Source of the DNA: Clostridiaceae bacterium BRH_c20a
GTDB taxonomy: Bacteria > Bacillota > Peptococcia > Peptococcales > BICA1-8
Assembly (NCBI GenBank): GCA_000961765.1
Contig: LADT01000053.1
Span: 62,001-126,000 of the forward strand
Direction of reading: 5' to 3'
Length of the DNA: 64,000 bases
The notes beneath the pieces are model-generated. The model saw only the letters and a program-made list of their open reading frames with translations, ran no database searches and was not told the origin of the DNA. Below, one piece after another: positions 19,854-36,312 of this stretch. Both the position numbers and the translations under genes were made by a program. Positions within the stretch are counted from its first letter, which is position 1, and every line of letters begins with the position of its first letter.

Positions 19854-21650
19854 TCATTGGGTAAATTTTTTAATAACGGGAATTGTAAAATCTAATCCGA
19901 ACTCCTCTAAGTGCTCAATTTTAGGTACTCCCGTCTCATCACAGCCCCGTTCCTTGTACCATCTAAGCCGATCTGCTTTAAATTTCTCCAGAGGATATAC
20001 TGATCCCGCCTTTTTACCTGTTGTCAATGGCTCAGTATGCACTCTCTCCGGTAAGACATCATCCTTTTCCGGAATTATGCCTTCCCGAATGTTATAAGCA
20101 CGGGCTAATAACAGCATTCTTTCTGCAGTTATGTCCCATTCTGAAAGCTCTATATCCCAACCCATTGTTGTTTGTAGTAAATCCATATATATCTGGGGAT
20201 CAACTAATCTTCTCTGCCAGGAACAAACGGTAAGAGAGTCCGCCCAAACCCGTTGATTTTGCTCATCAATGGTACTTCCATAATGATGACATGGCCCTCG
20301 ATCAGAGATTGCATATTGTAAGCCCTTCTTATGTCCCCCTTGGGGAACAAAGCCTGGAAATTCTACTCCTTTACAATGCATAGCTAGTTTTTCTGAACCT
20401 TTACCAATAGCTTGGGAAGCACATTTTACTCCCTTAGCTAAAATATCGCCTATCCCTTCACGTTTCACAATTTTTCGCCATAATTCTAAAATAGCTGTGG
20501 TATTACCCCATTCGAGCTTAATACCGTCTAAATCCTCTAAAGACAGTATGCCTTTTTCATAACACTCCATGGCAAAGCCTGTTATATTACCTAATGAGGT
20601 TGCATCAAGTCCCTGCTCATCTGCCCAACGACTCAGATATACCATAGAACCCAAATCAGAAATGTTGCAGCCTGGACCTATATTTGCTGTTGAATCAAAG
20701 TCCGGACATACTACATTACCGGCAAAAATTCCATCCCTAACGATTCCTAGCTTCATACAGCCTAAAGGGCAACCGGAACAAGATCTAGATTTGGCAAAAT
20801 ACCGTAAATCATATTTTAATCCGCCAACCTCACTAATACCTTCGAAATAACCTTCTCGATAATTTTTGTTGACCAGACGACCTTCATCATTATGGGCTGT
20901 CAAGCTTATGGAATTGCCGTAACGCACCAACTCGTATCCCCGTGGATGGTTAGTACGATTACTTAACATTAATTTTTCTAGTTCCCCTCGAGCCTTTATT
21001 ACACCCGGTAAGTCAAAAGTACTTACGGGGTTAGTCCCTCTAACTGCAACAGCTTTTAAACCCTTAGAGCCCCAAACTGTTCCAGAGCCGCAGCGAGCCG
21101 CCGCCCTAAACTGTTCCTGGCCAATGGAGGCAAAGCTTACCAGGTTTTCACCTGCTGGGCCGATTGCAAGTACTTTAAACTGACTGTCTTTTAACTCTTC
21201 CTTAATTAATTGCTGGGTCTGCCAAGTAGTAGTACCCCAAAGATGTCCGGCATCTCTTAACTCAACTACATCATCCTTAATCATTAAATAGACAGGTTTG
21301 GGAGATTTACCCTTTAATATAATTCCATCATATCCAGCATATTTTAATTCCGGACCCCACTGGGCACCAGTCACAGAAAAGCCAATGGTGTTGCCCGTTA
21401 ATGGAGATTTAAAAGTTAAACAAATATGGGCTCCGCCGGGGATTACACCAGTCAGTGGCCCGGTCAGGATATACATTTCTGCCTCAGGTGTAAGGGGATT
21501 GGCTCCCTGCTTTGTTCTCTCCCAAAGCAAGCGGGTACCCAATCCACGTCCGCCGATATATTCACGAACCCACTTATGTGGTAATTCGATTACTTCGATT
21601 ATATTTTCTGATAAATCAATTTCTAGGATTCTCAAACTTAACTGTTTCAT
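19854..21650 (-). CDS. Aldehyde ferredoxin oxidoreductase family protein (AOR 1)
   Basis: Tungsto/molybdo-bispterin enzyme of about 598 residues that oxidises aldehydes (or reduces activated acids) with ferredoxin. It has the N-terminal pterin domain (YIGGRGLGTRLLW; GPLTGVIPGG), the [4Fe-4S] site CSGCPLGCMK near residue 300 and the distal cysteine in DSLTVCSW. The ferredoxin subunit upstream ends at 21662, just ahead of this start, so the pair is probably a complex. The start MKQLSLRILEIDLSEN fits the family; two codons further upstream are also possible. Substrate unknown. Confidence 0.9.
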   Translation of the reverse strand: MKQLSLRILEIDLSENIIEVIELPHKWVREYIGGRGLGTRLLWERTKQGANPLTPEAEMYILTGPLTGVIPGGAHICLTFKSPLTGNTIGFSVTGAQWGPELKYAGYDGIILKGKSPKPVYLMIKDDVVELRDAGHLWGTTTWQTQQLIKEELKDSQFKVLAIGPAGENLVSFASIGQEQFRAAARCGSGTVWGSKGLKAVAVRGTNPVSTFDLPGVIKARGELEKLMLSNRTNHPRGYELVRYGNSISLTAHNDEGRLVNKNYREGYFEGISEVGGLKYDLRYFAKSRSCSGCPLGCMKLGIVRDGIFAGNVVCPDFDSTANIGPGCNISDLGSMVYLSRWADEQGLDATSLGNITGFAMECYEKGILSLEDLDGIKLEWGNTTAILELWRKIVKREGIGDILAKGVKCASQAIGKGSEKLAMHCKGVEFPGFVPQGGHKKGLQYAISDRGPCHHYGSTIDEQNQRVWADSLTVCSWQRRLVDPQIYMDLLQTTMGWDIELSEWDITAERMLLLARAYNIREGIIPEKDDVLPERVHTEPLTTGKKAGSVYPLEKFKADRLRWYKERGCDETGVPKIEHLEEFGLDFTIPVIKKFTQ

Positions 21651-21661
21651 ATAATCACCCA

Positions 21662-22183
21662 TCACTTTATTTCTTCCCGTCCAAACACTTTTACTGCTAA
21701 TTCTCGGGCAATTTCATATGCATTACGATTTAAATGTCTGCTTTCAAAACAGGGATCAAGATTATAGCTTAAGGCCTGTGGTCCGCAGGCGGTAACACAT
21801 ACAGGATTTCCGCCACATAAGTCGCAGAACAGAGGTGTTCCTCTTTTAGGATGGTAACTAACGGCCTCCCCCGGACAAGCCCGAAAACATCTCTGACATT
21901 GAAGACCTTGTTCCCTTAAGCATTTCTCCTCATTGATCAAAACAACTCCACTTTCTGGATCATAGCTTAAAGCCTTTACCTTTTCTGGACAAGCGGCAAC
22001 ACAGGGATGATCAGAGCACTGATGACAGGCTACCGGAATATCTAAAGGACCCAGTCCAATCTGTACCACTTTAATCCTTGCTGCTTCCGGCCATATTTGT
22101 TTTTCTTTATTAATGGCACATGCCATTTGGCAGGCTTTACATCCTGTGCATTTATCATATCGTATATCGAGTCTGCCTAGCAT
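21662..22183 (-). CDS. 4Fe-4S ferredoxin subunit (HybA/DmsB-like) for AOR 1
   Basis: 173 residues with cysteine motifs CTGCKACQMAC, CHQCSDHPCVAACP, CLREQGLQCQRCFRACP and CDLCGGNPVCVTACG, enough for about four [4Fe-4S] clusters, as in HybA/DmsB-like electron-transfer subunits. No signal peptide. It precedes the AOR gene directly, so it probably shuttles electrons between AOR 1 and ferredoxin or another acceptor. Confidence 0.92.
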   Translation of the reverse strand: MLGRLDIRYDKCTGCKACQMACAINKEKQIWPEAARIKVVQIGLGPLDIPVACHQCSDHPCVAACPEKVKALSYDPESGVVLINEEKCLREQGLQCQRCFRACPGEAVSYHPKRGTPLFCDLCGGNPVCVTACGPQALSYNLDPCFESRHLNRNAYEIARELAVKVFGREEIK

Positions 22184-22212
22184 GAAATAATTCCCCTTTT
22201 TTAGTATTTAGA

Positions 22213-22231
22213 GGGCTGGTTACACCAGCCC
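22213..22231 (-). other. Hairpin after tctC 1
   Basis: GGGCTGGT-TAC-ACCAGCCC, an eight-pair GC-rich stem right after the binding-protein stop codon. No strong U-tract on the minus strand (CTCTAAATACT follows), so partial termination or 3'-end protection of a highly expressed binding-protein mRNA is more likely. Confidence 0.6.
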
Positions 22232-22242
22232 CCAAGGCCTAA

Positions 22243-23295
22243 TTACTTAATATCAGCAAGTGCTTTTGCCAAGGTTCCTTTAATTTTCTCAGCGGTAGCG
22301 GCAATTTCATCAACCTTTTGTTGAAGTCTTTCACCCTCCATAAATGTAATCGGGTTATTTGCTTTTGCTGCTTTGTCTATTAATTCAGGATCGGCCAAAG
22401 CTTTGGCAACAGCTGCTCTAAATTCCCTAGTTACTTCAGGATCCATTCCTGGAGGCCCAAAGAAACTGCGGTGAACTTCAAGCATATTTGTTATTACTTT
22501 CATAAAATTTTGCCCTTCACCAGTTGTTACTTCTAATGCTGTCGGTACATCGGGGTATTCAGCAACTCTCTCAGGTGCAAACATTAATAAAGGTTTTTTA
22601 TCACCAGCTTTGATCATAGGATCAGCATCGCCTAAAGCAGTGATATGTCCATCACCTTCACCTTTTATTACAGCTAAAGCAGTATCAGCGTTACCTTCAT
22701 AACCAGTAATCTGGTTAAGTTCAAATCCCATTGACTCAGCCATCACAGCAGCTGTAAAGAAGTCCTCATCCATCCCTTGAGATGGGAATTTTATGGGTCT
22801 GCCAGCCTTAGCTAGATCTTCAATACTATTAAATTCTGATTTTCCGCCTACTGCAAAAACCCTAGGTTCTGTTGCAGCACGACCTAAGTAAGTAAACTTA
22901 GTAGCTTCAAATTGTACACCTTCAGAGCCGGATAATTCAGCCAAAAGAACTGACGGGAAACTAGTAAAAGCAAATGTTAAACCATCTGGCTTAGACTGCC
23001 ATAACTGGTTAATACCAATAACTCCACCGGCACCAACAATGTTTTTCACAGTAATTTTAGCTCCGGGATAATGCTTTTCAATATAAGGAACAATCATTCT
23101 AGCGTAAGTATCCATACCTTTACCAGGAGTATTCGGAACAATCAGGGTTATATCTTTTTCTTTTACTTTTTCTTTTACTTGTTCTTTTACTTCTTCTTTT
23201 TGGGCAGGCTCTTGAGCTTTTTGTCCACAAGCTGTTACTAAAGACATGATTAATAGAATCGCAAAAATCAAAATTAAGCTTTTCTTTTTAAACAT
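22243..23295 (-). CDS. tctC: Tripartite tricarboxylate transporter binding protein (TctC 1)
   Basis: Binding lipoprotein of the TTT system. Signal LIFAILLIMSLVTAC with a lipobox cysteine at residue 23, then a Lys/Glu-rich linker with KEEVKEQVKEKVKEK repeats, then a Bug/TctC domain (LIVPNTPGKGMDTYARM; NIVGAGGVIGINQLW). 350 residues. Expressed with tctB and tctA upstream; here the permease genes come first, the reverse of transporter 2. TTT ligands include citrate, aromatic acids, sulfolactate and others; the ligand is unknown. Confidence 0.92.
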   Translation of the reverse strand: MFKKKSLILIFAILLIMSLVTACGQKAQEPAQKEEVKEQVKEKVKEKDITLIVPNTPGKGMDTYARMIVPYIEKHYPGAKITVKNIVGAGGVIGINQLWQSKPDGLTFAFTSFPSVLLAELSGSEGVQFEATKFTYLGRAATEPRVFAVGGKSEFNSIEDLAKAGRPIKFPSQGMDEDFFTAAVMAESMGFELNQITGYEGNADTALAVIKGEGDGHITALGDADPMIKAGDKKPLLMFAPERVAEYPDVPTALEVTTGEGQNFMKVITNMLEVHRSFFGPPGMDPEVTREFRAAVAKALADPELIDKAAKANNPITFMEGERLQQKVDEIAATAEKIKGTLAKALADIK

Positions 23296-23389
23296 TGAAC
23301 AAATCTCCCCTTTTTTAATTATTTATTATCAAAAGTTTTAAAACTAAGACTAATTACCTCCCCCCTACAGATATCAAAAAAATAATCAC

Positions 23390-23893
23390 CTATAAAATTC
23401 CTTCTAAAATTCCTTTGTAAAAATGAACATTTAAAAATGTAACGAAGAGCAGATGTATAAACAGCAGTGTCCCTATGCCAAAAATTAAAGACTTAAACCA
23501 CCTATCTTTATTAATTAGGCGGAAATAACCAGTCACGAAAACAAAAATAGCTGCTTCAATTCCAATAATCACTATTAGAGCCAAAAATACTGCTACAATT
23601 GTGAAAGCTACTAATTCTTTTTTGTCTAAACCTTCCTTCTTTTCACCCGATTTAGACTTTTTAGTATCCTTTGTACCAAACAATAGCTCACCGGCATCAA
23701 TTGCCAAGTTTAATTTAGTATTTTTGGCATTTTGTAAATAAAGTTGTAGCGAGATTAAAATTGCTGAACCAATAGCTATTGGCATTGGAACTAGTCGAGC
23801 CCTAGGACCATAACCCATTGACACTATTGCTACACTAACAAAAAAGACAAGAAAAGCTATTGCTACCAAATTATTTGCAGTTCTCTTTGTCAT
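23390..23893 (-). CDS. tctB: TTT small membrane subunit (TctB 1)
   Basis: 167 residues with four hydrophobic segments and a charged loop (about 70-90, KDTKKSKSGEKKEGLDKKE). Poorly conserved sequence, but size, topology and position between tctA and tctC are those of TctB. It begins two bases after the tctA stop. The paralogue at 29.3 kb has the same layout, including a motif like INLNVDAAELL in the loop. Confidence 0.88.
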   Translation of the reverse strand: MTKRTANNLVAIAFLVFFVSVAIVSMGYGPRARLVPMPIAIGSAILISLQLYLQNAKNTKLNLAIDAGELLFGTKDTKKSKSGEKKEGLDKKELVAFTIVAVFLALIVIIGIEAAIFVFVTGYFRLINKDRWFKSLIFGIGTLLFIHLLFVTFLNVHFYKGILEGIL

Positions 23894-23895
23894 TA

Positions 23896-25398
23896 TTACT
23901 GCACCCCACTTTCGTCCACAGTCTGTTTTTTGGAAAAGAAAGAACGTATAAATGGGAAGAATAAGGTAGATAAAACAACAAGTAGCAAAATAAGTGTTAC
24001 CGGCCTGGTTACAAAGAAAAGGTTTCCATAAAGTTTAATGGAAATATGCATATATCTTTCAAGCATTAACCCTAAAACCATACCAATTGCCATATCAGCC
24101 CTGGAATACTTGTATTTATCCATAATATATCCGATAAAACCAAAGATAACAGCAACCAATACATCACCAATACGACCTTTAATTGCATATGAACCCACTA
24201 AACAAACCGGAAGTAATACAGGAATCAGTATACTACTTGGCAAGGTGGTTATTTTTACTAAATGCTTTGCCAAAAGCAATCCACCTATTGTAGTCAGGAT
24301 GTTTGCAACAACTATAATCCAAACTATAGAGAAAACCAAATCCATATGATTTTCAAGCATATCCCTACCCGGTGTAATCCCCATAACAATAAAAGCTGAT
24401 AAAAGGATGGCCATACTTTCACCACCTGGAATACCAAAGCCCAAAGTAGGCACAAGTCCCCCACCTTCATTGGCTGCATTAGTAGCTTCAGGAGCAATGA
24501 CTCCTTCAATATTCCCTGTACCAAAGGATTCTTTTGTTTTGGAAGTCTGAGCAGCCATACCATAAGCAGCAATCCCACCAATACTAGCCCCAACTCCTGG
24601 AAGCGCCCCAATAAAAAGACCTAGTAAACTTGATCTTAAGACCAGTTTCCAGTGTATGAATACATCCCGTACACCTGTCCAAACATTACCCATTTCACTA
24701 GTTTTTTGTTCTTTTACAATTGAGCCTCCGGTTATATATAATTTGATCATTTCTGATATAGCAAAGAGCCCAATAACTACAACAGCAAAATCAAGACCAT
24801 CCATTAAAAATAACGTACCAAATGTATACCTTGAGGTTGCGCTTACTGGATCCATACCTACAAAAGAAAGTAGTAATCCAAAACCTGCTGCAGTTAATCC
24901 TTTTAAAAGAGAGCCACTACTAAATAATGCAATTACCGAAAGGCCCCATAATGCCATAACAAAGTATTCTGGAGGCCCTAATGCCATCATGATCGCCTTC
25001 ATAAGTGGTAAGGTTAACGTAAGAAATATAGCACCAATAAGACCACCAATTAAAGAAGCCATTGCCGCAGCACCTAAAGCTCTGGCACCTTCACCCTTTT
25101 GGGTCATGGGATAGCCGTCAAAACATAACGCAATACTTTTGGATGCCCCTGGGATATTAAATAAGATACTGGTTATCGAGCTGCCAAAGATTGTCGCTAC
25201 GTGTGCACCTAATAACATAGCCAGAGCAGCAACAGGGTCTAAGCTTAAACTAAAAGGAAGAATTAATGCCATAGCTGCAATACCGCCTAGCCCTGGCAAT
25301 ATTCCAATTAAAACACCAAATAAGACACCAATGGACATAAATAACATAGATGTAGGGTCAAGTAAAGCTTGCAATCCGTGCCACGATGCAGTTAACAT
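23896..25398 (-). CDS. tctA: TTT large permease subunit (TctA 1)
   Basis: 500 residues, about 11-12 hydrophobic segments. TctA signatures: GILPGLGGIAAMALILPFS near 35, GSSITSILFNIPGASKS near 73, and the repeat of the glycine motif FIGALPGVGASIGGIAAYG near 260. First gene of the operon that runs down to the ferredoxin at 16.6 kb; two island operator elements lie 60 and 330 bases upstream. The substrate is not predictable. Confidence 0.95.
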   Translation of the reverse strand: MLTASWHGLQALLDPTSMLFMSIGVLFGVLIGILPGLGGIAAMALILPFSLSLDPVAALAMLLGAHVATIFGSSITSILFNIPGASKSIALCFDGYPMTQKGEGARALGAAAMASLIGGLIGAIFLTLTLPLMKAIMMALGPPEYFVMALWGLSVIALFSSGSLLKGLTAAGFGLLLSFVGMDPVSATSRYTFGTLFLMDGLDFAVVVIGLFAISEMIKLYITGGSIVKEQKTSEMGNVWTGVRDVFIHWKLVLRSSLLGLFIGALPGVGASIGGIAAYGMAAQTSKTKESFGTGNIEGVIAPEATNAANEGGGLVPTLGFGIPGGESMAILLSAFIVMGITPGRDMLENHMDLVFSIVWIIVVANILTTIGGLLLAKHLVKITTLPSSILIPVLLPVCLVGSYAIKGRIGDVLVAVIFGFIGYIMDKYKYSRADMAIGMVLGLMLERYMHISIKLYGNLFFVTRPVTLILLLVVLSTLFFPFIRSFFSKKQTVDESGVQ

Positions 25399-27902: not shown

Positions 27903-27939
27903 TCTAACTCAACTTCCACTCTACGAAAGTTGAGTTAGA
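27903..27939 (-). other. Intercistronic hairpin between rdhA-like and DASS genes
   Basis: TCTAACTCAACTT and AAGTTGAGTTAGA form a perfect 13-pair stem around an 11-base loop. No U-tract follows on the minus strand. It may protect the upstream mRNA end or lower expression of the carrier. Confidence 0.55.
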
Positions 27940-27967: not shown

Positions 27968-29224
27968 TTATTTCGCTTTCTTTTGCCAAAAGCTTTTATT
28001 GTTTGAAATTTTACCGTATCCCAATAAATCATCTAATTTAACCCACATTTTATTTAGAAAAGGTAGATTTAAGGAACTCCAATATGGGATTTCATGAATC
28101 AATCCCGAAGGTTTATTAAAGGGGCAAACGGTAATACACAAACCACAATTTGTTCCTGAACTTGCCCAGTAGGCACGGCATTTATCATGCTTCAAATTCC
28201 ATTGATAAACACCTGGACTGCCGTAATCACCTTGTGGTGTAAAGGAAGGCCCGTTCATGGGTATTGCTTTAGGCGGACATGTCTCTGCACATTTTTCACA
28301 AGCGAGGCAAAACTCCCTTACTCCAAAAGTAATCGGCTTATCAGGAAGCACTGGCAAATCTGTAATAACCTTGGAGATCCGGGCACGAGGTCCGTACCAC
28401 GGAGTAATTAGTTTTGCATTACGACCAAGTTCACCCAAACCAGCATCTACTGCCAAAGGAATATTCAAAGCTGTATCATTAGAACTGGCAATAGCATTGT
28501 AGCCTAGTGAACGGATACATTCAGCTAAACTAATTGCACTAAAAGCAATCTTGGAATAGGCCAATCTAGTGGAGGCCATTTCTGTCAAAGTTGGTCCGGT
28601 TTTCATACCATCATAATCCATCTCATGAATCAGGACAATGGCATATTTCATCTCCTTGGGAATGATACGGGTACCATCAGACATTTTAGTCGGAATATCA
28701 ATGTTTTCAAATCCCGGCTCATCGGAAAATTTAATTGGATAAGAAGCTTTGGTTTCACTATCATACCAACTAGAATATACCCATTTACGATCCAATTTTG
28801 CAATCCCTACTTGATCAGATCCGTAGAAACGAGTAGCACCTTTTATGGTTTTGGTCATTTCTTCCGGACTTGCTTCCCATTTAACTCCCTTTTCGAAAGG
28901 TCCAAAAGTGAGTGGTGACCATGAGTTACCTCCCCGATCTGGATCATGCATGGGGAAATCAGTAACACTGAAAATACTGGCAGCACCAACGTAGTAAGCC
29001 CAATCGCGAATAGAAAATCCTTCTTTGCCTTCAGCTATATATTTACGGCGGTTGGCAGGATACTTCTTATTTAATGGCTGATATTCCGGATTCCATTTCA
29101 CCTGTAAAGCCATGTTCTTCTCTTGCGGAAATCTCTCGTAATTTTCTTGTACATCATAAAGTTCCGCCGCAGTCTTATTAACCTTTCTAACTGCATTTAG
29201 AAAGCCATACCTTGTAGACATCAT
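27968..29224 (-). CDS. Reductive dehalogenase-like corrinoid iron-sulfur protein without Tat signal
   Basis: 418 residues. The middle and C-terminal parts match RdhA: LGYNAIASSNDTALNIPLA, AGLGELGR, YGPRARISKVITDLP, then two [4Fe-4S] motifs (C306-x2-C309-x2-C312-x3-C316 and C349-x10-C360-x2-C363-x3-C367). Y223, N249 and R282 have the same mutual spacing (26 and 59 residues) as, from memory, the catalytic Tyr, Asn and Arg of PceA. The N-terminus (MMSTRYGFLNAVRK) has no twin-arginine motif and no hydrophobic segment, and no RdhB anchor gene is present, so it is predicted cytosolic. Start: GGAGGTGAAA directly upstream. It follows the TTT 2 genes, implying an imported substrate. Dehalogenation is inferred; related corrinoid reductases could do something else. 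Confidence 0.88.
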   Translation of the reverse strand: MMSTRYGFLNAVRKVNKTAAELYDVQENYERFPQEKNMALQVKWNPEYQPLNKKYPANRRKYIAEGKEGFSIRDWAYYVGAASIFSVTDFPMHDPDRGGNSWSPLTFGPFEKGVKWEASPEEMTKTIKGATRFYGSDQVGIAKLDRKWVYSSWYDSETKASYPIKFSDEPGFENIDIPTKMSDGTRIIPKEMKYAIVLIHEMDYDGMKTGPTLTEMASTRLAYSKIAFSAISLAECIRSLGYNAIASSNDTALNIPLAVDAGLGELGRNAKLITPWYGPRARISKVITDLPVLPDKPITFGVREFCLACEKCAETCPPKAIPMNGPSFTPQGDYGSPGVYQWNLKHDKCRAYWASSGTNCGLCITVCPFNKPSGLIHEIPYWSSLNLPFLNKMWVKLDDLLGYGKISNNKSFWQKKAK

Positions 29225-29335
29225 TTTCACCTCCGTCACTTTACCTTAAAGATTTCTAGAGTAAGCTTTTAAAAAAGGAGGCAACAAGCCCCAAGGCCAA
29301 CTAGTTATCCGTAATTGAATCGATAGGATAATACT

Positions 29336-32773: not shown

Positions 32774-33043
32774 TTACCCACATCCAAATGGTGGTAATAA
32801 TATTACATAATCATTCTTCTCAAGTTTATAATCCATCTCTACTTCTTTACCGTTTACAACTATACATATATATGGCAGTCTTGTTTTCTCATTAAAGATT
32901 AAGTGTTTAAAATCTTCTCCATATCTATCTATCAGGAGAAAAAGCAGCTCTCGTATTGCGAGCCCTTCATCTATCCCAATAGAAATAGTATTGATACCCT
33001 TTTCAAAGATGGATGGTCCCACATACTTAACAGCAACCTGCAA
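32774..33043 (-). CDS. MoaD/ThiS-like sulfur carrier protein
   Basis: 89 residues with a beta-grasp look (QVAVKYVGPSIFEKGINTISIG ... YICIVVNGKEVEMDYKLEKNDYVILLPP). MoaD homologues beside AOR genes usually help build the pterin dithiolene of the tungsten cofactor. The chain ends PPFGCG instead of the usual double glycine, an odd tail for activation by MoeB-type enzymes. The real start is the TTG four bases after the ferredoxin stop, with GGGGGTGA upstream; the longer frame that overlaps the ferredoxin gene is spurious. Confidence 0.82.
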   Translation of the reverse strand: MQVAVKYVGPSIFEKGINTISIGIDEGLAIRELLFLLIDRYGEDFKHLIFNEKTRLPYICIVVNGKEVEMDYKLEKNDYVILLPPFGCG

Positions 33044-33047
33044 TTTG

Positions 33048-33467
33048 TCACCCCCGCACAAAATCCAGTGCGTCCAAAGGACAAACTTGAGCACAAATCG
33101 GTTCTTTCCCTTTACATAAGTCACATTTAATGGGGGGATATCCCACATTTTTATAAATTCCATTAAATTTACATGCACTTACACACAAATACTCCCCGGA
33201 GCAAGTATCACATTTGCTTTGATCAATAACTATAACCTGTCTATCATTAACATCAATTGCATTTTGAGGACAAGCCTTAAGGCAATACTGCTGTTTGCAC
33301 TGCAAGCAGTAATTAATTTTTATAATATAGTTTTCAATGAAGTTGGAATTAATCCTTATCGCTGATTTTTCTAAGTTATATTGCCCATAATTCTCCATAG
33401 AGCACATTAAACCGCAAAGATGACAGCTAGCGCATTTTTTGGTATCCGCCTTCAGAACAGATTTCAT
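33048..33467 (-). CDS. 4Fe-4S ferredoxin subunit for AOR 2
   Basis: 139 residues with motifs CASCHLCGLMCS, CLQCKQQYCLKACP, CDTCSGEYLCVSAC and CDLCKGKEPICAQVCP, so about four clusters. Counterpart of the ferredoxin at 21.7 kb although the order is reversed: here it follows the AOR gene, sharing ATGA with its stop codon. No signal peptide. Confidence 0.92.
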   Translation of the reverse strand: MKSVLKADTKKCASCHLCGLMCSMENYGQYNLEKSAIRINSNFIENYIIKINYCLQCKQQYCLKACPQNAIDVNDRQVIVIDQSKCDTCSGEYLCVSACKFNGIYKNVGYPPIKCDLCKGKEPICAQVCPLDALDFVRG

Positions 33468-35293
33468 AAGACAATCCCTCCGATACCCAATCTCTCAAGG
33501 GTTTTCTGTGTCGGAATACCCTCAGCATCCCATCCTCTTGCTCGATAATATTCCTCGCGCATTACAAGAAAACCATCCCAAGAGATTAATCTTCCATCAG
33601 CATTTCCTTTTTTTATTGGTTCCTTATAAAACCGTTTCGGTAATACATCATCTCTGGCTGTTAGTCCACATTTCAAATTAAACACTCTAGCTAAAGTAAA
33701 AGCCCTTTCAGAAACTCGTATAGCCTCATCTTTATCAAATTCCATGCCGGTTATAAGAGTTATATACTCAGCATAGTCCTTTATTTTCAATTTATAGCGA
33801 GGAGGTACAAAGTCACAAATAATCAGGGAATGATAAAAAGCTCGAATATCTTCTTGTTCCTTCATAAATTCACCTTTACCTTGGTAAGCAAAGCGGAATT
33901 CTTCATTCTCCTGTTCTTTTCTTGTAGGTCTCGCTCTTCGATGACAGCCTCCCCGATCTGCAACAGCATAACCCAATGCATAACCTGTAGAACCCCTAGG
34001 GTCATAACCGGGAAGCTCCATCCCTTTAACATGAATAGCTTTACCACTATCTAAGCCTAATTCTTCCGCTAATTTTTTAACACCCAAAGCCATATATTTA
34101 CCAAAATCCCTATTATAAGCTATATCTTGCATAGCCCTTTCCACATTTTCACTGGAGCCCCATTTCAGCTCATAACCTAAATCATTTTTAGAAAGTTTCC
34201 CATCTTCCAAAGCTTCAACTACATAGGCTACGACATTCCCTGCTGAGACAGTGTCTAAGCCTAAGTCATCACAGAGCCAGTTAAAATAAAGGGTTTCAGT
34301 AGGGCCTACTTCAAGATTTGTACCAATTACAGATATAGTTTCATACTCAGGGCCACCTACCCTATGTTTTTGGTTATTGAAATCAACCGTAGCTGCTTTA
34401 CCACAGGGCATTGAGCACCCAAAACAACCTAAATCTCGAACAACATAATTTTCCCTCAAATAATCCCTATTCATATTCGTCTCATATGCTTCGGTAATAC
34501 CCTCGGTAAAGTTTTTTACCGGAACAATCCCAAAGTGTTGAGTAAGGTCTAAAGTACTCATTGTTCCATACTTTATTCTAAATTTAACTCCCGGGTCTTG
34601 ATGGAATGTAGTTATTATTTCTAATGTTTTATCATAATGCTTTTTACTGTCTTGAAGAGAAATTTCCTGGTTACCAAAGACAACTAGCCCCTTGAGATTT
34701 TTAGAACCTAAAACTGCACCGACCCCACCTCTTCCAGCCTGATGGTAAAAGTCAGCATGCACAACGGCATAAGGTACTAAGTTTTCTCCTCCCGGTCCAA
34801 TTACTGCTATAGAATACTTTGTCCCATATTTTTTACGCAATAGTTTTTCCGACTCAAAGCAGCCTTTTCCCCAAAATTCACTAGCATCATGTAAACAAAC
34901 CTGATCATTGGTAATTTCTAAAAAAACTGGCTTCTCGCTTCTTCCTTTTATGATAATTCCGTCAACACCACTCATTTTTAGATAATGTCCTAAGCTTCCG
35001 CCAATTGTGCTGTCTAAATATCCACCAGTCAGAGGTGACCTTGTCGAAAAGATAGCTTTGCCTACACCAGGAGTAGCTGTTCCGGTAACAGGTCCTACGG
35101 ATAAAACAACTTGGTTTTCTGCACTTAATGGATCATAATTGTAAAGTTCTTCATCGAGCAAAAATTGAGCATTAAAAGCTTTGCCACCTAAAAACTTTTC
35201 ATAATAGTTCTCCGGAAATACAAATGTACTTATATCTGATTTAGTTAAATCAATTAACAAATATTTATTTCTAATACCATTTTTTATACTCAA
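33464..35293 (-). CDS. Aldehyde ferredoxin oxidoreductase family protein (AOR 2)
   Basis: About 609 residues. Pterin-binding N-terminus (FLGGKAFNAQFLLDE; GPVTGTATPGVGKA), [4Fe-4S] site CFGCSMPCGKA near residue 290, distal Cys in HSLIICDFV. It differs enough from AOR 1 to suggest another substrate. The start is likely the TTG preceded by GGGGGTGA, coupled to the end of the binding-protein-like gene; ATG six bases earlier is an alternative. Group with its ferredoxin, a MoaD-like protein and the NMT1-like protein. Confidence 0.9.
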   Translation of the reverse strand: MSIKNGIRNKYLLIDLTKSDISTFVFPENYYEKFLGGKAFNAQFLLDEELYNYDPLSAENQVVLSVGPVTGTATPGVGKAIFSTRSPLTGGYLDSTIGGSLGHYLKMSGVDGIIIKGRSEKPVFLEITNDQVCLHDASEFWGKGCFESEKLLRKKYGTKYSIAVIGPGGENLVPYAVVHADFYHQAGRGGVGAVLGSKNLKGLVVFGNQEISLQDSKKHYDKTLEIITTFHQDPGVKFRIKYGTMSTLDLTQHFGIVPVKNFTEGITEAYETNMNRDYLRENYVVRDLGCFGCSMPCGKAATVDFNNQKHRVGGPEYETISVIGTNLEVGPTETLYFNWLCDDLGLDTVSAGNVVAYVVEALEDGKLSKNDLGYELKWGSSENVERAMQDIAYNRDFGKYMALGVKKLAEELGLDSGKAIHVKGMELPGYDPRGSTGYALGYAVADRGGCHRRARPTRKEQENEEFRFAYQGKGEFMKEQEDIRAFYHSLIICDFVPPRYKLKIKDYAEYITLITGMEFDKDEAIRVSERAFTLARVFNLKCGLTARDDVLPKRFYKEPIKKGNADGRLISWDGFLVMREEYYRARGWDAEGIPTQKTLERLGIGGIVL

Positions 35294-35298
35294 TGCCA

Positions 35299-36192
35299 TC
35301 ACCCCCGAGCCTTGTTAGAATAACTCAGATTATAAACCTTTTTCAAATCAACTTCGCCATTTATTTGTCCTAATTTACCCATTACCTTTACAACCTCATT
35401 TAAACCCGATTCATTAATAATTCCCTTTTCGTTAAAAATTTTATATTTTATGTACCTATCATAAGCTTTTTCAGCAATTTCCTCAGCCAGTCCCAGATTT
35501 CTTATTAATACTTTTATTGCTTCTGAACGATTTTGAGGATTATAAAACCAATCTACAGATTCAATATAGCCCGCAATGAAGTTAACCATAATTTCTTCAT
35601 TTTCCATGGCCCAAGAGCTTTTAACAGCTGCAATGCGCCCCTGGTAATTGGGTATACAATCAAGATTACTTCCTAAGTTATTAAATCCTTTTAATTCCGC
35701 CTCAATGTCAGAAGGTGCATCGAGAAAGGTCCCATCAATTTCTCCGGCAATTAATGCTTTAAACCGCTTTCCACTACCACCCAATTCCACAAAAGTGTAC
35801 TCCGAAGACAAAACATTGTTAGATTCTAATAATGCTTCTAGTAATAAAGCATACCCGGAATTTTTCCCATCGACACCCAGTTTTTTGCCTCTAAGGTCAC
35901 AAAAAACCTTGATATTGGGGCTTGTGATTAAGTTATAAAAAGGAAGTGCTACCCCCATACAAATAAATAGTTCAGATTTGTTATTTACTACCCTTTTAAC
36001 AATATGATCTGCAGCAGCAAACCCCAAATCATAAACTCCCTTTTCCATATCATCCAACTGTTGCTTTGAAGAATTTGTTATGTTCACTTCAACATCTATG
36101 CCATTTTTCGTAAAAATGTTTTTTTCCAAACCTATATAAATTGGCCAATTGCTTGCGGAATCAGAGATTATTGCTGTCTTTATTGTTTTCAT
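35299..36192 (-). CDS. NMT1/SsuA-like binding protein lacking a signal peptide
   Basis: 297 residues with the periplasmic-binding-protein type II fold of NMT1/THI5-like proteins (ISDSASNWPIYIGLEKNIFTKNGIDVEV; LRGKKLGVDGKNSGYALLLEALL). The supported start (GGGGGGAAC six bases upstream) gives MKTIKTAII, with neither a signal peptide nor a lipobox, so the protein should stay in the cytosol. No ABC permease or ATPase is nearby. It may be an intracellular ligand-binding accessory or enzyme. First gene after the operator element at 36.3 kb. Confidence 0.8.
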   Translation of the reverse strand: MKTIKTAIISDSASNWPIYIGLEKNIFTKNGIDVEVNITNSSKQQLDDMEKGVYDLGFAAADHIVKRVVNNKSELFICMGVALPFYNLITSPNIKVFCDLRGKKLGVDGKNSGYALLLEALLESNNVLSSEYTFVELGGSGKRFKALIAGEIDGTFLDAPSDIEAELKGFNNLGSNLDCIPNYQGRIAAVKSSWAMENEEIMVNFIAGYIESVDWFYNPQNRSEAIKVLIRNLGLAEEIAEKAYDRYIKYKIFNEKGIINESGLNEVVKVMGKLGQINGEVDLKKVYNLSYSNKARG

Positions 36193-36312
36193 TTTTAAGT
36201 TCCCCCCGCAATTCAATAAATTCTTTCAATTAAATTTATTTAAACATTTGTCATAATATATAATTTAACAAGTTTTCAGTTTTTCAGTTTTTCAGTTTTT
36301 TCCCGGTATATT

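Follow-up and report, generated by a model that had tools for sequence, protein, structure and literature searches.

The gene rdhA (27968-29224, minus strand) of the window, the whole 64-kb stretch of DNA that was analysed, encodes a reductive dehalogenase homologue of 418 aa that carries neither a Tat signal nor a membrane anchor. We consider it probable that this protein, RdhA, is a cytosolic, single-domain reductive dehalogenase equipped with a corrinoid and two [4Fe-4S] clusters and operating outside membrane respiration. The original prediction, that this RdhA-family protein is a corrinoid/[4Fe-4S] reductase working inside the cell and differs in this from the exported respiratory enzymes, is supported by sequence comparison and by a predicted structure.

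The open reading frame had been correctly placed, and it is read from the minus strand; translated on the plus strand, these positions contain many stops. An ATG at 29224 is the likely start, with a good ribosome-binding site (acggaggtg) just 5' of it, and an alternative GTG at 29239 would add five residues only. RdhA passes the curated reductive dehalogenase model TIGR02486 (244.8 bits, cutoff 160.35, E 1.9e-72) and also matches PF13486 (28.1 bits, cutoff 24.3) and Fer4_16, whereas it fails the QueG model TIGR00276 (45.2 bits, cutoff 200). PceA of Sulfurospirillum could be aligned to residues 64-421 of the 423-aa reading with an E value of 5.8e-64. At E values such as those for TIGR02486 and PceA, a chance likeness to the family is excluded.

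Both [4Fe-4S] motifs are intact, as had been claimed: the first, C306xxCxxCxxxCP, is encoded at 28274-28309 and the second, C349 ... C360xxCxxxCP, at 28121-28180, both on the minus strand. The Tyr-Asn-Arg set was likewise recovered in an alignment of 63 proteins, where Y223, N249 and R282 of RdhA occupy the columns of PceA Y246, N272 and R305, and W353 that of PceA W376. Conservation was also scored over the 54 columns that are conserved in at least 85% of 15 Tat-type RdhAs. RdhA retains 50 of them. The four losses comprise both Tat-motif arginines, an Ala-to-Ser exchange and a Phe-to-Cys exchange.

An AlphaFold2 model of the protein without cofactor (mean pLDDT 86.4, pTM 0.89) is predicted to keep the full RdhA fold together with the active-site trio. 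It superposes on PceA of Sulfurospirillum multivorans (4UQU) with a Z score of 44.5 and 2.1 A over 362 residues, and it matches Desulfitobacterium PceA (8Q4H) with Z 38.6, NpRdhA with Z 31.2 and QueG with Z 13.9. Foldseek ranked the structural likenesses in the same order (PceA, NpRdhA, QueG). RdhA shares only about 30% identity with the closest structurally characterised enzymes, and we expect it to bind a corrinoid as they do.

Membership of this fold leaves room for a cytosolic corrinoid reductase that performs a reductive C-X cleavage other than dehalogenation, such as that of a C-O bond or an epoxide. The wider fold does carry out other reductions, QueG being the example, the sequence of RdhA does not reveal its substrate, and the neighbourhood of the gene is rich in organic-acid metabolism and holds no recognised halo-specific gene. 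However, the Tyr-Asn-Arg trio and the tryptophan are all kept in RdhA, whereas QueG-like proteins differ at the Tyr and Asn columns; it is the dehalogenase model and not the QueG model that RdhA passes, and Tat-less relatives elsewhere dehalogenate (PMC13101508). We therefore regard such an activity as unlikely and favour reductive dehalogenation.

Export signal, membrane anchor and domain content

There is no twin-arginine motif at the N-terminus of RdhA, and no transmembrane helix along the protein, in which the highest mean hydropathy over 17 residues is 0.91, compared with 3.18 in a membrane-helix RdhA of the same genome. No RdhB-like ORF was found near rdhA. That Tat signal, membrane anchor partner and RdhB are all missing had been proposed beforehand, and the motif, hydropathy, ORF and genome searches agree on it. 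Nor can a Tat leader be hidden by a wrongly chosen start, since the stop-to-stop frame comprises 425 codons and is closed two codons above the alternative GTG, leaving no space for one. In these proteins the mature part opens with an RF(N/D)Q motif, which lies at residue 31 in RdhA; the Tat-type proteins in which it could be located have it at 65-88. The whole leader region is thus absent from RdhA. In most members of the clade described below the motif lies at residues 7-34; two members with longer N-termini that lack the RR pair have it at 55 and 67.

The genome encodes CobS, for cobamide assembly, and TatC, and two further RdhAs. One is a hybrid with N-terminal membrane helices (L002 820-2178, G000:C31), of the kind described in PMC6797604. 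The other is a Tat-type RdhA with the motif RRSFLRG, followed by a 98-aa RdhB-like ORF (L003 1024-2777, G000:C62); it has Cys at the PceA Tyr246 column, where it may be divergent or misaligned. Since the organism encodes both TatC and a Tat-bearing RdhA, the missing signal in RdhA is meaningful.

RdhA could in principle be a respiratory enzyme that has lost its leader, being exported in trans with a Tat-bearing partner or decaying as a remnant. Its first residues, MSTRYGFLNA, faintly resemble a Tat n-region. The frame is nevertheless intact, with the conserved positions kept and a good ribosome-binding site, and the entire clade is Tat-less across bacteria and archaea. The genome also offers no second RdhB: a search with the RdhB-like ORF beside the Tat-type gene returned no second copy, the next match (E 0.07) lying inside a 664-aa frame. 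We judge a lost leader exceedingly improbable, and the cytosolic reading stands.

At 418 aa, RdhA is a single core with no reductase domain and no vestigial second corrinoid-fold domain, and no part of it accepts NAD(P)H. The enzyme is probably fed by ferredoxin. Two unusual RdhA loci were noticed in other genomes. A 690-aa tandem RdhA-RdhA protein (L084 9353-11425, G417) has Tyr-Asn-Arg in its first half and His-Asp-Gln in its second, and from its sequence appears to be an independent counterpart of the NpRdhA vestigial domain in the opposite order. At L086 4751-7480 (G182) a Tat-type RdhA frame lies close to another RdhA-like frame, which may represent a broken or a duplicated copy.

Relatives of RdhA and the Tat-less clade

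Relatives of RdhA were found in metagenome-assembled genomes assigned to Dehalococcoidia (48-50% identity), Halanaerobiales (49%) and Bathyarchaeota (42%), taxon names that for such contigs depend on binning, and, at 59%, 48% and 41-44% identity, in further genomes from the same phylum. The nearest of them (59%, G123) sits at a contig end. In a maximum-likelihood tree RdhA falls into a clade of 10 members, with support 99/99, that includes proteins of Bacillota, Dehalococcoidia, Halanaerobiales and Bathyarchaeota and not a single Tat protein. RdhA thereby adds a well-supported Tat-less clade that crosses Bacillota, Chloroflexota and Bathyarchaeota.

Other parts of the tree contain the catabolic RdhAs of the fused type, the helix hybrids, a Tat-less group made up mostly of Bacteroidota and a further Tat-less group of Bacillota. 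Placement among QueG-type proteins had been named as the outcome that would count against a dehalogenase; RdhA is not among them, the six QueG-like sequences forming a group of their own (96/97). A topology uniting the RdhA clade with NpRdhA and BhbA was rejected (p-AU 0.007). Joining the clade to the QueG outgroup, which would make it the first branch of RdhA, costs only 1.2 log units and was not rejected (p-AU 0.30).

No match of RdhA strength turned up in any of 45 same-class genomes (best E 1.1e-14). The distribution of the gene is therefore patchy, which probably reflects gain by transfer or widespread loss. A bolder view of the clade is that it represents a deep, all-cytosolic lineage of bacteria and archaea, fed by ferredoxin that tungsten aldehyde oxidoreductases (AORs) reduce, and perhaps older than the exported respiratory RdhAs; we consider this distinctly unlikely.

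Three members of the clade (in G091, G129 and G417) adjoin genes for a histidine kinase and a response regulator and lie near a Tat-RdhA/RdhB pair. The loci concerned are L081 7311-10794 (G091), L082 9426-12908 (G417) and L083 7002-10488 (G129), and a GAF-domain histidine kinase was checked in G129. This subgroup suggests that not every clade member need be catabolic, and it invites the idea that RdhA of the window is an organohalide sensor or regulator that signals to a two-component system or controls other genes. However, the three kinase-linked proteins group in a separate subclade (100/100), and rdhA of the window has neither a kinase nor a regulator gene beside it. The catalytic residues of RdhA, which a pure sensor could dispense with, are intact. 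A sensory role for RdhA is very improbable, and we retain the catalytic one.

Genomic neighbourhood, substrate and electron supply

The gene order around rdhA is as the original prediction described it, with all genes on the minus strand. Upstream lie a TctC-like lipoprotein binding protein (32533-31448; PF03401 26.8 bits, at the cutoff of 27), TctA (31363-29864; PF01970 447.8 bits) and a TctB-like small membrane subunit (29863-29336; PF07331 38.9 bits), and downstream a DASS-family anion symporter (27900-26392; PF00939 E 6.9e-50, TIGR00785 182.9 bits, slightly below its cutoff). Further genes on the same strand encode an NMT1/SsuA-like binding protein (35299-36216; PF09084 58.6 bits), AOR2 of the tungsten aldehyde:ferredoxin oxidoreductase family (33464-35302; PF01314 397 bits, PF02730 222 bits), the adjoining ferredoxin-like [4Fe-4S] subunit (33048-33467) and a MoaD/ThiS-like small protein (32774-33178; TIGR01687 41 bits, under the cutoff). 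A second, paralogous cassette with TctA1, TctB1, TctC1, a ferredoxin-like subunit and AOR1 occupies 19854-25398, also on the minus strand. The TctA proteins of the two cassettes are 58% identical and the AORs 30%, so the duplication is old; a recent one was rejected on the identity of the AOR pair.

The further claim, that rdhA belongs to a transporter operon, found no clear support. Gaps of 111 nt and 67 nt separate rdhA from tctB and from the DASS gene, respectively. The latter contains a perfect 13-bp hairpin with an 11-nt loop (27903-27939, minus strand; z -4.76) that has no U-run and could possibly mark a transcription boundary or an operator. It is a single-copy palindrome in the genome, which rules out membership of a recurrent hairpin family. 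In the gap between tctB and rdhA, a weak terminator-like stem followed by six T (29278-29292, minus strand) scored no better than shuffled sequences. Neither a cobalamin riboswitch nor any other RNA family was detected in the 64-kb window at the gathering threshold.

The 4.5-Mb genome holds 15 TctA genes and 27 above-cutoff AOR matches, with several AOR-TctA pairs close together, and by its gene content the organism would be an organic-acid specialist. Since both families are so common, the occurrence of either near rdhA is weak evidence for a functional link. In the clade relatives examined, no TctABC or DASS genes lie beside rdhA; one has LIV-type permeases (identified by eye) and a DUF362 protein as neighbours (L006) and another has corrinoid methyltransferase-type genes, also identified by eye (L007). 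The stem and hairpin in the two gaps, the abundance of TctA and AOR genes and the different neighbours in relatives together weaken the operon reading.

Parallels for a link to uptake come from the fused-type RdhAs. The plasmid-borne gene of BhbA adjoins a gene for a TctC-type binding protein, and other plasmid-encoded RdhAs of this type lie near uptake genes, in Aminobacter with TRAP and in Jannaschia with an ABC system. Given the arrangement at BhbA, an imported organic acid is by analogy a plausible substrate for RdhA. A separate locus (L085 1-3740, G068) has an RdhA fragment at the contig end, then a YcaO protein and a DASS carrier. Fluoroacetate reduction was rejected as a model, since the operons described for it use glycine-reductase-like proteins and not RdhA (PMC10838667).

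Electron supply was considered from the position of AOR genes. At two loci a Tat-less RdhA is directly preceded by an AOR, with spacings of 176 nt (L008) and 17 nt (L010), and AORs occur within about 7 kb of a Tat-less RdhA in G451 and L020; no such proximity was seen in L080-L083. At the former two loci (L008 1-2419, L010 6807-9831) the order AOR, Tat-less RdhA and ARMT1-like phosphatase gene is kept; the ARMT1-like domain was checked in L010, and L008 has a similar ORF. All 13 of the other genomes searched contain AOR matches, 1-13 each. Since every checked genome has AORs and L080-L083 have none nearby, the AOR-rdhA link is a lead and not a rule. It is still reasonable to propose AOR-reduced ferredoxin as the electron donor of RdhA.

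In the mechanism that we propose, electrons would pass from a ferredoxin-type donor to the distal [4Fe-4S] cluster, on to the proximal one and from there to base-off cob(II)amide, giving cob(I)amide. A substrate bound in the pocket would then undergo reductive cleavage of its C-halogen bond, with a proton supplied by Tyr223 assisted by Arg282 and Asn249. The substrate would most likely be a halogenated organic compound, probably carboxylated or phenolic, that is imported into the cell, perhaps by the neighbouring TctABC or DASS carriers. Its product could enter catabolism or the reaction could act as an electron sink.

Comparison with known dehalogenases

The type of enzyme to which RdhA belongs is already known, since Tat-less, unfused reductive dehalogenases have been described and expressed (PMC13101508, PMC10463259, PMC6737245); any novelty over known enzymes falls away with these precedents. 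PMC13101508 lists Tat-less enzymes from Roseobacter, Pararhodobacter, Shewanella, Clostridioides, Bathyarchaeota, Lokiarchaeota and Thorarchaeota among those expressed and active. For the Asgard dehalogenases an earlier paper had described no domains beyond the RDH core and the clusters (PMC6737245). RdhA resembles these proteins (Roseobacter Ros_A3X954 and others) in having no Tat signal, an RDH core and two [4Fe-4S] motifs. With the enzymes of PMC13101508 the comparison is by description, and host and gene neighbourhood differ; the clade of RdhA includes a Bathyarchaeota relative (L007).

The original prediction had also set RdhA apart from the cytosolic enzymes NpRdhA and BhbA by their fused reductase domain. 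This is right for BhbA, which like JtRdhA has the fused reductase, but not for NpRdhA, which lacks it and has a vestigial second corrinoid-fold domain instead (PMC10463259). NpRdhA, BhbA and JtRdhA share with RdhA a cytosolic location and the absence of a Tat signal, and the gene of BhbA likewise adjoins one for a TctC-type binding protein; they differ in the vestigial second corrinoid-fold domain, which brings them to about 700 aa or more, and in having Lys in place of the Arg. PceA is like RdhA in fold, in the Tyr-Asn-Arg trio, in both clusters and in the length of the mature core; in contrast to RdhA it has a Tat leader, is exported and is paired with the PceB anchor. QueG is a distant cousin and the outgroup of the tree, likewise with a corrinoid and two [4Fe-4S] clusters but lacking the Tyr and the Asn.

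As soluble proteins that require no export and no anchor, unfused intracellular RdhAs are well suited to heterologous study. A clade that spans Bacillota, Chloroflexota and Bathyarchaeota provides material for studying the electron supply of cytosolic RdhAs and whether export preceded or followed them. The hybrid RdhAs of PMC6797604 likewise combine an RDH core with the absence of a Tat signal, but they carry N-terminal helices that are missing from RdhA of the window and lie on another branch of the tree. With exported, membrane-hybrid and cytosolic RdhAs all encoded in one genome, these forms can be compared within a single organism.
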